From a virus: 42,506 nt of DNA. The DNA is taken from the IMG/VR virus record IMGVR_UViG_3300017605_000381, positions 1 through 42,506 of that record. One strand, 5' to 3'. This document shows, one piece after another, positions 1 through 33,833 of the stretch. The notes beneath the pieces are model-generated. The model worked only from the letters and a program-made list of their open reading frames with translations. It was not told the DNA's origin and did not search any database. The position numbers were made by a program, and so were the translations under genes. Each line of letters begins with the position of its first letter. Position 1 is the stretch's first letter.

Positions 1-1
1 A

Positions 2-994
2 GACAGAGGCGGGTGTTACTGGTTCCGCACCAAGGACGCAACCGGCAAGCGTGTTAACAGGCCGGGAGGTTCAACCAAGCGGGAAGCCATCGAAGCACGG
101 GACTCTTTTCGAAGGGAGCAGGAAGCGCTTCGCTCAGAAGTTAGGTGTGAGCTTAAAGACTTCGTAGTTAACACCTACCTTCCCGAGCAATCAGCAAACA
201 TCAGTGAGAGGTCTCTTGTCAGGGAGCTTGGCGCGATCAGTTCGCACTTGCTCCCTTTTTTTATTGGTGCAGGGTGTCATCAGTTGAAGGACATCACGCC
301 CGAGCTAATCACGCAGTACAAGAACCAACGAGCCGCGCATGTCACCAGCGGCACAGTGCGCAAAGAGCTTGCCATCCTGCGGCATGTCTTCAGTATGGCT
401 GTTAGCTTGGAGAAGATCGGAAAGAGCCCATTCAACAAGGTCAAGATGCCTCGCGACTCAGTTCCTCGCGTCAGGTTCCTTGACCCCTCAGAGTGGGAGG
501 CGTTGTTGAAGAACGTGCCCGAGTGCTACCGGGCCATCGCTGTCTTTCTTGTTAACACTGGATGCAGACGAAGCGAAGCCCTCGCCTTGCGCTGGTCGAA
601 CGTTGACCTAGTGAACGGCTTCGGTGTGATCGAGCGGGACAAGAGGCACAAGGAGAAGGTGATTACTCTCAACTCTGACGTGGTTGCACTGCTGAAGACC
701 TTGCCTCGCCATGAGACAGACGACAGGGTTTTTCATTGGGTGCCATCCGGTGACGCGGTGACATGGGCCTTCAGTCAGGCTGTGAAGAAGTCAGGCGTTG
801 TTAACTTCCGGCTCCACGACTTGAGGCACACGGCTGCAAGCCATCTCGCTATGGCAGGCCACGACATCAAGACTATCGCAGACTTCCTTGGGCACAGTGA
901 CATCAGACAGACCACGCGCTACGCTCACCTAACACGGCAGAGCATACGAGAGGCGAGTGATTCACTGGCCGGGAAGTTCGGAGGTTCCAAGTGA
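2..994 (+). CDS. int: Tyrosine recombinase (phage integrase), 5' end outside window
   Basis: Catalyses site-specific recombination between phage attP and host attB. The frame is open from base 2, so the N-terminus is missing and the first internal ATG (248) is not the real start. Visible family motifs: the Arg I box TGCRRSEAL (Arg codon near 566), the HDLRH box near 812-826, and LGHSDIRQTTRYAH near 890-925 with the nucleophilic Tyr. The N-terminal part (GKRVNRPGGSTKREA) resembles an arm-binding domain. It lies about 0.4 kb from the attP core, as expected. The open frame at the right end of the window (from 42322) joins it in frame if the molecule is circular, giving about 392 aa, a usual integrase length. 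Confidence 0.95.
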   Translation, partial: DRGGCYWFRTKDATGKRVNRPGGSTKREAIEARDSFRREQEALRSEVRCELKDFVVNTYLPEQSANISERSLVRELGAISSHLLPFFIGAGCHQLKDITPELITQYKNQRAAHVTSGTVRKELAILRHVFSMAVSLEKIGKSPFNKVKMPRDSVPRVRFLDPSEWEALLKNVPECYRAIAVFLVNTGCRRSEALALRWSNVDLVNGFGVIERDKRHKEKVITLNSDVVALLKTLPRHETDDRVFHWVPSGDAVTWAFSQAVKKSGVVNFRLHDLRHTAASHLAMAGHDIKTIADFLGHSDIRQTTRYAHLTRQSIREASDSLAGKFGGSK

Positions 995-3086: not shown

Positions 3087-3452
3087 TTAGTATTCCTCCG
3101 GAAGCTGAACGGTCGTTACACTGCGGTCTGCTTCGGTGATGACATAGAAGCTCGTGCTTCTCACCTTGAACTTACTGACGATGCGTGAGCCGTCCTTGAC
3201 TGCTAGCACGTTTAGCTGATGGTCTTCGTTGCCAAGCTCTCCTTGCTCCATGTCGGCGTGGGCTATGAGCAGGTCGATCATGTCGGGGCCGTCAAGCTCT
3301 GCGATTGCTCCCGGCGTGGCTACAACCTGCCCAAGCTGAAAGATGGGGTTGTATTCCCACTTGTTCTGCGGTGCTCGTTCAATCACGAGGATTGCGAGGA
3401 AACCGTCTTCCTCGGGTTCGCTCTGACTTGCTTGTTTCGTCTCTTCGCTCAT
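3087..3452 (-). CDS. Hypothetical acidic protein, 121 aa
   Basis: ATG at 3452 preceded by GAGAGGGG at good spacing. Acidic N-terminus (EETKQASQSEPEEDG), then a mixed alpha/beta region with a hydrophobic core (FLAILVIERA) and a C-terminal beta-rich part. No cysteine motif, membrane span or catalytic signature seen. It follows the vWA-like gene after a structured 97-base gap, so its expression may be separately controlled. Family unknown. Confidence 0.7.
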   Translation of the reverse strand: MSEETKQASQSEPEEDGFLAILVIERAPQNKWEYNPIFQLGQVVATPGAIAELDGPDMIDLLIAHADMEQGELGNEDHQLNVLAVKDGSRIVSKFKVRSTSFYVITEADRSVTTVQLPEEY

Positions 3453-3549: not shown

Positions 3550-4347
3550 CTACTCTTCCGAAGCTCCGATTTCTCGAAGCTTCGTGTTAATCCATTCCAC
3601 GGGGTTCTTCAGCATTTGGTCGTGGAGGGCTGCGGGTGGAACGTAAATGTCCTGCTCGTTCATGCCTACGTGCTGACGGATGAAGTTGTAATATTTGCTC
3701 CCTCCGTTCGTTTCGCCGTATTTGTACTGATTTGGCCACCCTCCGTTAAATCCCTCGTGACGCTGCGCAAAGGTGTAGGTCAGGTGTCGGGCGAAACTGA
3801 CGTGAGCAAGGGCGTAGCAAGCTACTGACAAGTCGATGGGACTAGATTGCATTCTGACGGCGATTGCACAGATGCCGTCTTTGTTGCCGTGCGTCTCGGC
3901 TAACAGGTACAGGCTAACGGGGCGGATCGTCTCAAGCTTCCGGAGTAGTGCAAGGGCCACTAGGCCGCGTTTTGTCATTACCTCTGAGTCGATTCCGCCT
4001 GAGCAGGTTGTGCTCACGTATATGCTGACGGGGCTAAGCTCTGAGCTTGCTTTCTTGCGGAGTCTCATCGGCGTTGGGCTCCCGCTCAGGTAGTCGGGGA
4101 CGTTGCAAAAGGCTCCTTGAACCGATTTCGCCCAATAGGGCTGCAAGGTTTCGATTGATTCCGCTTCAACCTGCTCTAAAAACTCGTCAGATTTCACGAC
4201 TAGGTTAGAGTCGCCCTTGAAACAACCCTTAAGCGTGTCGTTGTAGGATTCGAAGCCGTACCAAGACCCCTCGCTGTAGGCATCGCGAGGGGTGAGCTTT
4301 TCGCAAGCTCGGGCAAAGTCTTGAATGGAGTCGAAAGAGTAGAACAT
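3550..4347 (-). CDS. vWA-like protein (DUF7192/CobT-type partner of AAA+ ATPase), 265 aa
   Basis: Start chosen at the ATG at 4347, two bases after the AAA+ stop and preceded by AGAGGTGG; the ATG at 4368 would overlap. The middle (residues about 78-150: FCNVPDYLSGSP, then SIYVSTTCSGGI and KRGLVALALLRKLE) has the pattern of phage vWA-like proteins paired with CobS/MoxR ATPases. The first MIDAS position, normally Asp in DxSxS, reads VSTTCSG here, so metal binding may be lost or altered. The adjacent ATPase gene supports a two-protein machine. I recall the phage family as DUF7192; that name should be verified by profile search. Biological role in phages is unknown. Confidence 0.7.
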   Translation of the reverse strand: MFYSFDSIQDFARACEKLTPRDAYSEGSWYGFESYNDTLKGCFKGDSNLVVKSDEFLEQVEAESIETLQPYWAKSVQGAFCNVPDYLSGSPTPMRLRKKASSELSPVSIYVSTTCSGGIDSEVMTKRGLVALALLRKLETIRPVSLYLLAETHGNKDGICAIAVRMQSSPIDLSVACYALAHVSFARHLTYTFAQRHEGFNGGWPNQYKYGETNGGSKYYNFIRQHVGMNEQDIYVPPAALHDQMLKNPVEWINTKLREIGASEE

Positions 4348-4349
4348 GA

Positions 4350-5636
4350 CTAGGCCACCTCTTTCCATTGCTCGGGGCTCATGCCCTTGCGCAAAGTTAA
4401 CTCTTCAACCTGCGGCCATGCCATGCCAGTCGCGAGCAACGTTGCGCCGTACACTGAAGCGCGGGGAGTGATTAGCACCTTGATACCCCTTGCTTTCACG
4501 TTGGCTCTAACCTGCTGTACCCTCTTCACCCAATTATCATTGTTGGCAATGGCAAGCTCTAGGGCCTCGTCAACGTCCCATGACAGGAACACGTAGCGGT
4601 CAAGGGTTGCGGCGTCAAGCTTCGTGCGTCCCACGTAGTCTGCGGTTGCACCTAAGCCGAAAGTATTCCCTGCGGCTATGATGATGCAATCCTTGTGTCT
4701 CTCCACTAAGCCATCAGGGAAGGCGCAATGTCCGTTGGCGGTTGCTGCGTTGAAGGGTAGAACGGCGTCGTTGCTGCTGCCGTCGATCTCGTCAAACAGA
4801 AAAATCCCTCCGTTCTCGTAAGCTTCGCGAAACGCCGTCCGTTGGTATTCGCCGTTGGCGTTCTTGAAGCCAAGCAAGCTGAAGGGCTCGCTGATGGCTC
4901 CCGTAAAGTAGAATTTCAGGTCAAGGGCTTTTGCAACGTTCTGAGCGGCGGTTGTCTTTCCGCTACCTGCGGGTCCTGCTAGCCAAACATTCAACGGGCC
5001 TCGGCCTTGCTTATACGCTGAACAGATTTGGAGCAACGTTGGGAAAAGCTTATGCTGTATTCCCATGTCTCTAGTCTCGCCTGATTCTTCAGACTTGACA
5101 GTGACAGTGACGGGCCGCGGTACTGACAAGCTCTTTACCTTGGCGTCGATCATGGCGCTGATCTGCTCGGCGTCAATGGGTTGCGCTTTCGGTGCTACGC
5201 TCTCGGCAATCTTCCGGATTGCCTCTTCAATCGCTGAGCCGTTGCCGTTGGTGCTAGCTGCCGGGATAATCACCGTGTCGGGGTGTCTCTCAACCTTGGG
5301 CGTGTAGGTGCCAGTCGTGAGGTATTCGACAAGCTGAGCTTTGCCGAGTGATAGCAGAGTCGTGCCGTTCAATCCGGAAGCTCGGCAATGTTTCCGGAGT
5401 TCATCGACGCTCATAGTCGCCCAATCAGTCGAGGGCGGTGCGTCTTGCTCGTCGCTCTCAACGGCGGTTGCCGTCTCGTTGCTGAAATTGTTGGTTGCTG
5501 CGTTATAGCAGGTCTGGCAGGTGATTCCTTCGCCTTTGCCGTGCCAGTAAATCACGACGCCCTTGCTCTGCGGTGTCTTGCAAGTTTTGCAACGGTTTCC
5601 GTTGAAACGGTTTATGAGGGTTTTCGGAGTGCTCAT
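4350..5636 (-). CDS. CobS/MoxR-like AAA+ ATPase with zinc finger and SAP domain, 428 aa
   Basis: Domains in order: a CxxC...CxxC zinc ribbon (Cys16, 19, 40, 43); a SAP-type DNA-binding helix pair at about residues 75-107 (SVDELRKHCRASGL, then LGKAQLVEYL); a linker; and a AAA+ core with Walker A GPAGSGKTT (221-229), Walker B FLFDEID (280-285), a sensor-like IIIAAGNT and an arginine region near LDAATLDRY. MoxR/CobS ATPases remodel partner complexes together with vWA proteins, and such a gene follows immediately. The zinc and SAP parts point to action on nucleic acid. ATG lies one base after the upstream stop, in the context GTTAACATG on the coding strand. Alternative: a general chaperone ATPase. 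Confidence 0.85.
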   Translation of the reverse strand: MSTPKTLINRFNGNRCKTCKTPQSKGVVIYWHGKGEGITCQTCYNAATNNFSNETATAVESDEQDAPPSTDWATMSVDELRKHCRASGLNGTTLLSLGKAQLVEYLTTGTYTPKVERHPDTVIIPAASTNGNGSAIEEAIRKIAESVAPKAQPIDAEQISAMIDAKVKSLSVPRPVTVTVKSEESGETRDMGIQHKLFPTLLQICSAYKQGRGPLNVWLAGPAGSGKTTAAQNVAKALDLKFYFTGAISEPFSLLGFKNANGEYQRTAFREAYENGGIFLFDEIDGSSNDAVLPFNAATANGHCAFPDGLVERHKDCIIIAAGNTFGLGATADYVGRTKLDAATLDRYVFLSWDVDEALELAIANNDNWVKRVQQVRANVKARGIKVLITPRASVYGATLLATGMAWPQVEELTLRKGMSPEQWKEVA

Positions 5637-5637
5637 G

Positions 5638-5742
5638 TTAACGCGCTCCCTTCAAAACACGAGCAAGCCAGTAGCAGGTATAAACCGCAACCGCTAAGGC
5701 GATAAGCTCGAACTGATGGGATTGGACTACAGGTAGGTTCAT
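5638..5742 (-). CDS. Micro membrane protein, 34 aa, first in leftward operon
   Basis: ATG at 5742 with GGAG about ten bases upstream; the stop lies one base before the AAA+ start. One hydrophobic span (FELIALAVAVYTCYWLARVL) is followed by a basic KGAR end, suggesting a cytoplasmic C-terminus. A longer frame from 5964 exists, but its upstream part looks non-coding and runs into the divergent promoter region. Too short to assign a family. Position suggests it leads the operon transcript. Confidence 0.5.
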   Translation of the reverse strand: MNLPVVQSHQFELIALAVAVYTCYWLARVLKGAR

Positions 5743-33112: not shown

Positions 33113-33245
33113 GAATCTGTTAACACGCCTGAAGACCCGCTCCACACCTGCCTTTTCAGCCTAAAGGAAATTTTTAGCAGGAGTCTACGACCTAAGTTTG
33201 CTTGTCCCTAGTCGCGTCCGAGAGACGCCACAAAGGAGACGAGCA
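33113..33245 (+). promoter_or_regulatory. Promoter-type gap with GTTAACAC and 17-bp repeat
   Basis: The first sizeable gap after the late genes. Contains CTGTTAACACG (33118-33128) and, at 33191-33207, CCTAAGTTTGCTTGTCC, which is identical to 7831-7847. AAAGGAG follows before the sigma gene ATG. A promoter for the early operon is expected here. I could not fix a convincing -10/-35 pair. Confidence 0.5.
33191..33207 (+). repeat. 17-bp repeat copy B, upstream of sigma factor
   Basis: CCTAAGTTTGCTTGTCC, exact match to 7831-7847 over 17 bases in the same orientation; the next base differs. Lies 39 bases before the sigma-factor start. No partner stem is present here, unlike copy A, which favours a DNA-binding site or promoter core over an RNA hairpin. 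Confidence 0.75.
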
Positions 33246-33833
33246 ATGCAAATTTCTGATCCAAGTTTCGACCAAGAACTAAAGAAGATCGTCGCAGTTT
33301 TCGAGAGGCTTTATCCAAAGCACCGCTACGAAATTGAAGACATCGCACAGACAGTTGTATGCAACGCTCTGCGCCTCGGCGTTACAGAGTTTTGCCCCGC
33401 CTACCTCAAAACCTCCATCAAAAACGAAATCATCAACATCGTCCGCTCAGCGCGGAGCAAGGCGAACGTGTCTCTTGACTCTTCCGCTAACGAACAGCGA
33501 GCAAACAAGCCGCCCGTGCTTCGCTTCAAGAGGGGTGTTGCTTCCACTCAGGACAGCAGGGCTCGCTCTATAGACGTTCGAAACGCTATCGAAGGCTCAC
33601 ACCTCGACGGCGAGAACGTCCTCAGCCTCTACTTCATTGACGGCCTAGACCTGACTGAGATCGCAGAGCGCACCGGCACTAACAGGGGCTCAGCGCACCG
33701 CAAGCTTCACCGACAGATGAAGCGAGCGAAGGCATTGCTTGGCGACTACCAAGATGTTTTTCCGAACGGTGGAGAGATTCGACTTTCGCGAGAGACAGAG
33801 CGCGACATCAAAGGGAGACCATGCACACTCTAA
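33246..33833 (+). CDS. Sigma-70 family (ECF-like) RNA polymerase sigma factor, 195 aa
   Basis: Start chosen at 33246, preceded by AAAGGAG; an upstream frame from 33198 lacks a site. Region 2-like segment (PKHRYEIEDIAQTVVCNALR, then KTSIKNEIINIVRSARS) and region 4-like HTH (VLSLYFIDGLDLTEIAERTG, GSAHRKLHRQMKRAKALL). Basic, compact, no anti-sigma nearby. It probably redirects host polymerase to phage promoters. Its gene heads the early-type operon and sits behind one copy of the 17-bp repeat, suggesting self-regulation. Phage-encoded sigma factors of this kind are uncommon. Confidence 0.8.
   Translation: MQISDPSFDQELKKIVAVFERLYPKHRYEIEDIAQTVVCNALRLGVTEFCPAYLKTSIKNEIINIVRSARSKANVSLDSSANEQRANKPPVLRFKRGVASTQDSRARSIDVRNAIEGSHLDGENVLSLYFIDGLDLTEIAERTGTNRGSAHRKLHRQMKRAKALLGDYQDVFPNGGEIRLSRETERDIKGRPCTL

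Follow-up and report, generated by a model that had tools for sequence, protein, structure and literature searches.

A phage MoxR-type ATPase and its DUF7192 partner as a probable remodelling pair

NorQ–NorD (Paracoccus, Jhaorihella) and CbbQ–CbbO each combine a MoxR-type AAA+ ATPase with a vWA partner, in which a hairpin "finger" lies ahead of the first MIDAS-bearing vWA strand. The NorD finger goes into the NorQ pore and contacts the helix-2 insert (PMC13036017), and NorD MIDAS mutants still bind NorQ while their target function is gone (PMC9976466). CobS–CobT and phage cobST are likewise AAA+/vWA gene pairs, common in tailed viruses. Viral MoxR–vWA pairs, for which a chaperone role has been proposed, are also represented by ATV p618/p892 and by jumbo phages (PMC4124505, PMC7824862), and a MoxR–vWA core occurs in ternary conflict systems (VMAP, bpMoxR; PMC7159879).

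The window, by which the whole stretch of DNA analysed is meant (an IMG/VR virus record of 42,506 bases), carries an operon in which an AAA+ ATPase gene is followed by a gene for a DUF7192 protein, and the two very probably form a remodelling pair of the MoxR–vWA type. NorQ–NorD and CbbQ–CbbO are the best structural matches; however, NorD has a large N-terminal domain and depends on its intact MIDAS for the target, whereas the window partner is short with a degenerate MIDAS, and the extra modules reside here on the ATPase. The pairs of phiM5, Kayvirus and mycobacteriophage cluster L share the families (PHROG_249 and PHROG_1909), order and strand of the window pair, and that of Listeria phage P70 is related, but the window ATPase has its own Cys4 plus SAP-like N-terminus. 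The vWA proteins of ATV and jumbo phages are longer or fused to a peptidase, and the ATV pair is virion-associated.

Setting and layout of the operon

The record is a fragment, in which a tyrosine recombinase (integrase) frame at 1–994 (+) is truncated by the left end, so that genes further left lie outside view. Rightward genes encode terminase, portal, capsid, an endolysin-like glycosyl hydrolase, ERF and a primase–helicase, the portal and capsid being called by eye and by position adjoining the terminase. The operon runs leftward from 5742, divergent from a probable small terminase gene at ~5984, and the terminase, structural and replication genes all occupy the other strand, as the original prediction had stated for the lytic genes (Table 1). 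The description of the phage as temperate finds support in the integrase, truncated as it is, but no repressor was identified. A sigma-70 promoter scan of the window gave no more matches than chance. Between the structural and replication genes, a frame at 33198–33830 (+) encodes a phage ECF-like sigma-70 factor (TIGR02937, 45.1 bits, over the cut-off; PHROG_1740), which may switch phage transcription. The non-coding segment 6939–7030 holds three 15-nt direct repeats (AGTTTGAGTGACTAA), perfect or nearly so, with inverted versions after them, and is a possible origin or operator.

Table 1. Features of the leftward operon in the window.
Feature	Position	Strand	Remarks
34-aa ORF	5638..5742	(-)	possible single-TM microprotein; GGAG SD; coding part 5742-5641, TAA stop 5640-5638
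MoxR-type AAA+ ATPase, 428 aa	4350..5636	(-)	
ATPase modules	Cys4, residues 16-43; SAP-like, residues ~71-110; linker; AAA+, residues ~190-428		
DUF7192 vWA-like partner, 272 aa as called	3550..4368	(-)	
Partner finger tip, residues 83-101 of the 272-aa form	4066..4122	(-)	highly conserved; proposed pore-inserting element
Degenerate MIDAS first motif STTCS, residues 119-123 of the 272-aa form	4000..4014	(-)	
121-aa ORF, next downstream, same strand	3087..3452	(-)	unit membership uncertain

The partner probably starts not as called but at an ATG at 4347 (265 aa), which has AGAGG 10 nt upstream; the sequence TAGTCATG directly follows the ATPase stop at this ATG, the ATPase ending two bases before it. 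The 34-aa frame overlaps the ATPase SD and ends as TAA-C-ATG on the ATPase start, and this junction, together with its own SD, makes it a credible coupled gene. From the well-placed ATG at 4347 and the TAA-C-ATG junction, the three genes appear to be translationally coupled. What had been called a leading membrane protein of 34 residues stands as an apparently coupled frame with an SD, but its TM helix is marginal in hydropathy; the idea that such a microprotein is conserved next to the pair was rejected, small TM frames being found near just 12 of 95 pairs. The 121-aa frame matches no family in Pfam, PHROG, NCBIfam or PADLOC, Pfam gave nothing for the four small neighbours in the operon, and no recognisable effector was found in the window operon.

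The ATPase and its DUF7192 partner

The ATPase matches Pfam AAA (1.1e-7) and AAA_5 (1.3e-5) as well as PHROG_249 (3e-53), and AAA_5 is matched by all 61 of its relatives. Walker A (~221–228), Walker B (D282/E283), sensor-1 (N324), the arginine finger (R347) and sensor-2 (R392) are intact, with most of the catalytic motif residues invariant among the 61 relatives, and by these motifs the protein is classed as MoxR-type. The family profile finds midasin, CobS (4e-20), CbbQ (8e-15) and NorQ (8e-13) in the PDB, and CbbQ and NorQ are also the best Foldseek matches of the AAA part of the model (pLDDT ~97). In this model, short strands are predicted at 257–258 and 264–265, between helices 252–255 and 268–275, and the hairpin between residues 257 and 265 occupies the position of the MoxR helix-2 insert, so that the predicted structure has the β-hairpin by which the MoxR type is recognised.

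Of the two DNA-binding modules originally proposed in the N-terminal part of the ATPase, the SAP-like one holds as a plausible assignment: the model has three helices at residues 77–108 (pLDDT 92–95), and two relatives (L038 and L028) have homologous segments, with the Pfam SAP score at 12.5 bits, under the 23.9 cut-off. The other, a Cys4 motif (residues 16, 19, 40 and 43 of the sequence) in a region modelled at pLDDT ~43–66, is a putative zinc site. Just 3 of ~93 family members have the SAP module, and DNA binding through it therefore cannot be the general function. Because the N-termini differ strongly from one ATPase to another, with a CxxC motif in 22 of 95, and the SAP-like segment is clear in just two others, the N-terminus appears to be an exchangeable module, which in the window, with Cys4 and SAP-like parts, may bind nucleic acid. 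The N-termini of L004 and of Bacilli ATPases appear enzyme-like by eye and gave no PDB sequence match.

The partner belongs to DUF7192 (PF23822; 2e-16, 60.4 bits against a curated cut-off of 27) and PHROG_1909 (1.4e-29). Its model, built with 64 family members (pLDDT 88.9), has as best PDB matches in Foldseek the vWA domain of NorQ-bound NorD (3e-4) and the MIDAS domain of Rea1, which also lead the VIA ranking, where the best Z of 8.1 lies at the edge of the range reached by unrelated folds. Viral fold matches are other DUF7192 proteins and then CobT-like vWA proteins; the match to ATV ORF892 is very weak (E 0.08). The partner profile matches neither a single NorD sequence in hhalign nor anything relevant among PDB sequences. 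An E of 2.8e-4 results when it is aligned with five cellular CobT proteins; finger and MIDAS regions are then in register, the hairpin falling on CobT QNRxWEFDLEEGxLD and STTCS on DNSGS. A Z of 8.1 is borderline alone, but as the same families top both rankings and CobT matches at this E value, the partner can be read as having a vWA fold, at moderate scores, and the predicted folds of both proteins support the MoxR–vWA reading.

The register with CobT also confirms the earlier observation that VSTTCSG stands in place of DxSxS. Loss of the MIDAS is not special to this locus, as had been supposed: within the first motif, which the test covers, D-x-[ST]-x-[ST] is kept in just 5 of 75 non-redundant partners (phiM5 and L019 included), and the first position is N in 30, E in 13, D in 9, S in 8 and another residue in 15. 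Judged from these alignments, degeneracy is a family trait, and it looks to have arisen by repeated loss, since the keepers phiM5 and L019 lie near the window partner in the tree. The hairpin finger, G-x3-[DN]-V-x3-L-x-G-x-P, is conserved across the family. Its tip (residues 83–101) averages 2.21 bits per column, compared with 1.40 overall and 1.50 in the MIDAS loop, G85 being invariant and G96 and P98 nearly so in the 75 non-redundant partners. Read with the NorD data, a kept finger and a lost MIDAS suggest that the partner has retained docking on the motor and changed how it meets its target. A DUF7192 protein acting as a MIDAS-less vWA with an ATPase-docking finger would offer a concrete, testable mechanism, and raises the question of what job a vWA co-chaperone performs when it lacks metal-dependent adhesion.

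The label of PHROG_249, "porphyrin biosynthesis", and the interpretation of viral cobST in PMC8651126 would make the two proteins a cobaltochelatase-like auxiliary metabolic pair, a phage CobST acting with host CobN. This is very improbable, as the CobS family model is absent from the NCBIfam hits of the ATPase at E 0.01, and the partner matches DUF7192 rather than CobT_C, falls well short of cellular CobT in length and is without the DxSxS of the CobT MIDAS. The label is likely misleading for this ATPase.

Distribution in phages, timing and proposed mechanism

By tblastn, the ATPase is found in 423 phage records, mostly of Staphylococcus, Mycobacterium and Listeria phages and including the Staphylococcus Kayviruses used in therapy; the partner was detected directly in 18. 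Wherever the partner was detected (91 copies across a set of 80 further viral loci and those annotated earlier), it lies on the strand of the ATPase (91/91, far beyond chance), usually within ~100 bases and nearly always directly downstream. The same order occurs in phiM5, phage K, P70, LMTA-34, cluster L mycobacteriophages, Gordonia phage Sephiroth, Rigallicviruses (with two small genes between) and the crAss phage cr118_1, and PHROGs confirms the identity of the partner in the annotated phages tested. An opposite-strand gene separates the two in Acinetobacter phage Mithridates, and the partner is upstream of the ATPase in L028. Room for a partner with none present was seen in L045, the remaining misses lying at contig ends. 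A DNA-level search in phages returned no match, and neither did a scan of viral contigs with the partner protein alone. With families, folds and this pairing in agreement, the original idea of a CobS/CobT-style (MoxR–vWA) pair holds.

Second DUF7192 copies occur in L003 (7614–8468), L054 (4661–6424) and L064–L066 (4772–6511), a duplication of the partner within one phage that is in tandem in all but the first. In L100 (2–2895), a DUF7192 gene lies between two AAA+ ATPase genes, the first clipped at the contig end. In the Kayvirus loci L006 (5700–6142) and L096 (4883–5325), two small putative membrane proteins, mbpR and mbpP, directly follow the pair.

Staphylococcus and Listeria phages, the source of 306 of the 423 ATPase-bearing records, are mainly strictly lytic. 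The ATPase gene of Kayvirus fRuSau02 is closely preceded by an early-type promoter, TTGACA-N17-TATAAT without a mismatch, and the locus holds two consensus sigma-70 matches where 0.04 were expected. The Kayvirus 515A1 transcriptome study reports that host-type promoters of this kind drive early units (PMC7698491); the early timing proposed for the pair is drawn from one distant relative. Both phiM5 and cluster L have the pair near a genome end, where it is read inward. The Kayvirus promoter and these positions speak against a role confined to lysogens. The strand of the operon and the lysogeny of the phage had been taken as a sign of prophage defence, a reading that gains no support from the mostly Staphylococcus and Listeria carriers, from the Kayvirus promoter or from PADLOC, which gave nothing significant.

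The position of several pairs, divergent beside terminase genes and with portal and head genes as neighbours, would suit a chaperone of virion assembly, the role suggested for the ATV and jumbo-phage pairs, and the fRuSau02 annotation reports the ATPase in particles; the particle annotation and the places beside terminase genes also count against a purely early role. A MazG-like protein is on the same particle list, however, in the phiM5 annotation neither member of the pair carries a particle-detected mark, the Kayvirus promoter is of the consensus sigma-70 kind, and the structural genes of the window occupy the other strand from the pair; an assembly role is improbable. In phiM5, gp65 (L002, 42460–42657, (-)), in another frame inside the ATPase gene, is annotated as particle-detected, possibly an artefact of annotation or of identification.

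No literature on DUF7192 was found, and the earlier statement that the role of such phage pairs is undefined is upheld. The pair is proposed to work as the phage counterpart of the MoxR AAA+/vWA machines (NorQ–NorD, CbbQ–CbbO, CobS–CobT, Rea1). By homology to NorQD, the ATPase would form a ring into whose pore the DUF7192 protein would dock by its conserved finger, and ATP hydrolysis would turn or pull the partner so that a target is remodelled. As the MIDAS is degenerate, the target would probably be chosen mainly by the variable ATPase N-terminus and the non-MIDAS surfaces of the partner; given the Cys4 and SAP-like modules, a nucleic acid or nucleoprotein complex is a plausible target here. 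Expression would most likely come early in lytic infection, when a host or phage complex would be remodelled. The complete statement, an early-infection MoxR–vWA remodeller whose ATPase N-terminus selects the target, may be right or wrong with about equal probability, and an early nucleoprotein or host-takeover role for the pair is a tentative proposal, judged slightly less probable than even.

Copies in bacteria and the conflict alternative

Bacterial genomes sampled at species level yielded at least 14 real ATPase relatives, 13 with an adjacent partner and the 14th clipped by a contig end; plasmids gave one partial ATPase and no partner. In a few Bacilli chromosomes, the pair is flanked by housekeeping genes with no obvious phage genes. 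It occupies one shared place near tmRNA and pyruvate formate-lyase genes in the related Bacilli L102 and L105, where pN/pS values of 0.22 for the ATPase and 0.09 for the partner (partial) indicate purifying selection, and it adjoins tmRNA in L103 (Acholeplasmatales). Such stand-alone copies leave room for a conflict or domesticated role.

They are also one ground for regarding the pair as a conflict cassette, a prophage-expressed or stand-alone bacterial two-gene unit for defence, superinfection exclusion or counter-defence. The three tmRNA-side pairs and the purifying selection seen in L102 and L105 would fit this, as would a type I R-domain protein in L098, a Schlafen-type helicase in L103, the ATPase N-termini, which vary like those of sensors, the recorded MoxR–vWA conflict systems and, in the window, the integrase and the operon's orientation against the lytic genes. 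Weak matches to bpMoxR occur in 14 of the 61 relatives. In the window operon, however, no third component or effector was recognised, PADLOC returned just P-loop matches of the ATPase to IetA (16–18 bits) and none for the partner, relatives appear rare in bacterial genomes (at least 14), and the carriers are predominantly phages generally taken as strictly lytic. A conflict cassette is therefore unlikely, and somewhat more doubtful still is a broader proposal, in which DUF7192–AAA+ would be a distinct MoxR–vWA branch without metal-dependent target binding that kept the finger, passed target choice to swappable N-terminal modules and became a mobile conflict cassette of two genes, for defence or counter-defence, common to phages and Bacilli. 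The pair probably serves as a general remodelling machine during infection and not as a dedicated prophage defence.

The L110 pair adjoins a primase–polymerase gene, and its region may be mobile-element DNA. The tmRNA-side pairs span 3403–7731 in L102, 1298–5142 in L105 and 5085–7793 in L103, and the Bacilli ATPases have a long unrecognised N-terminal domain.
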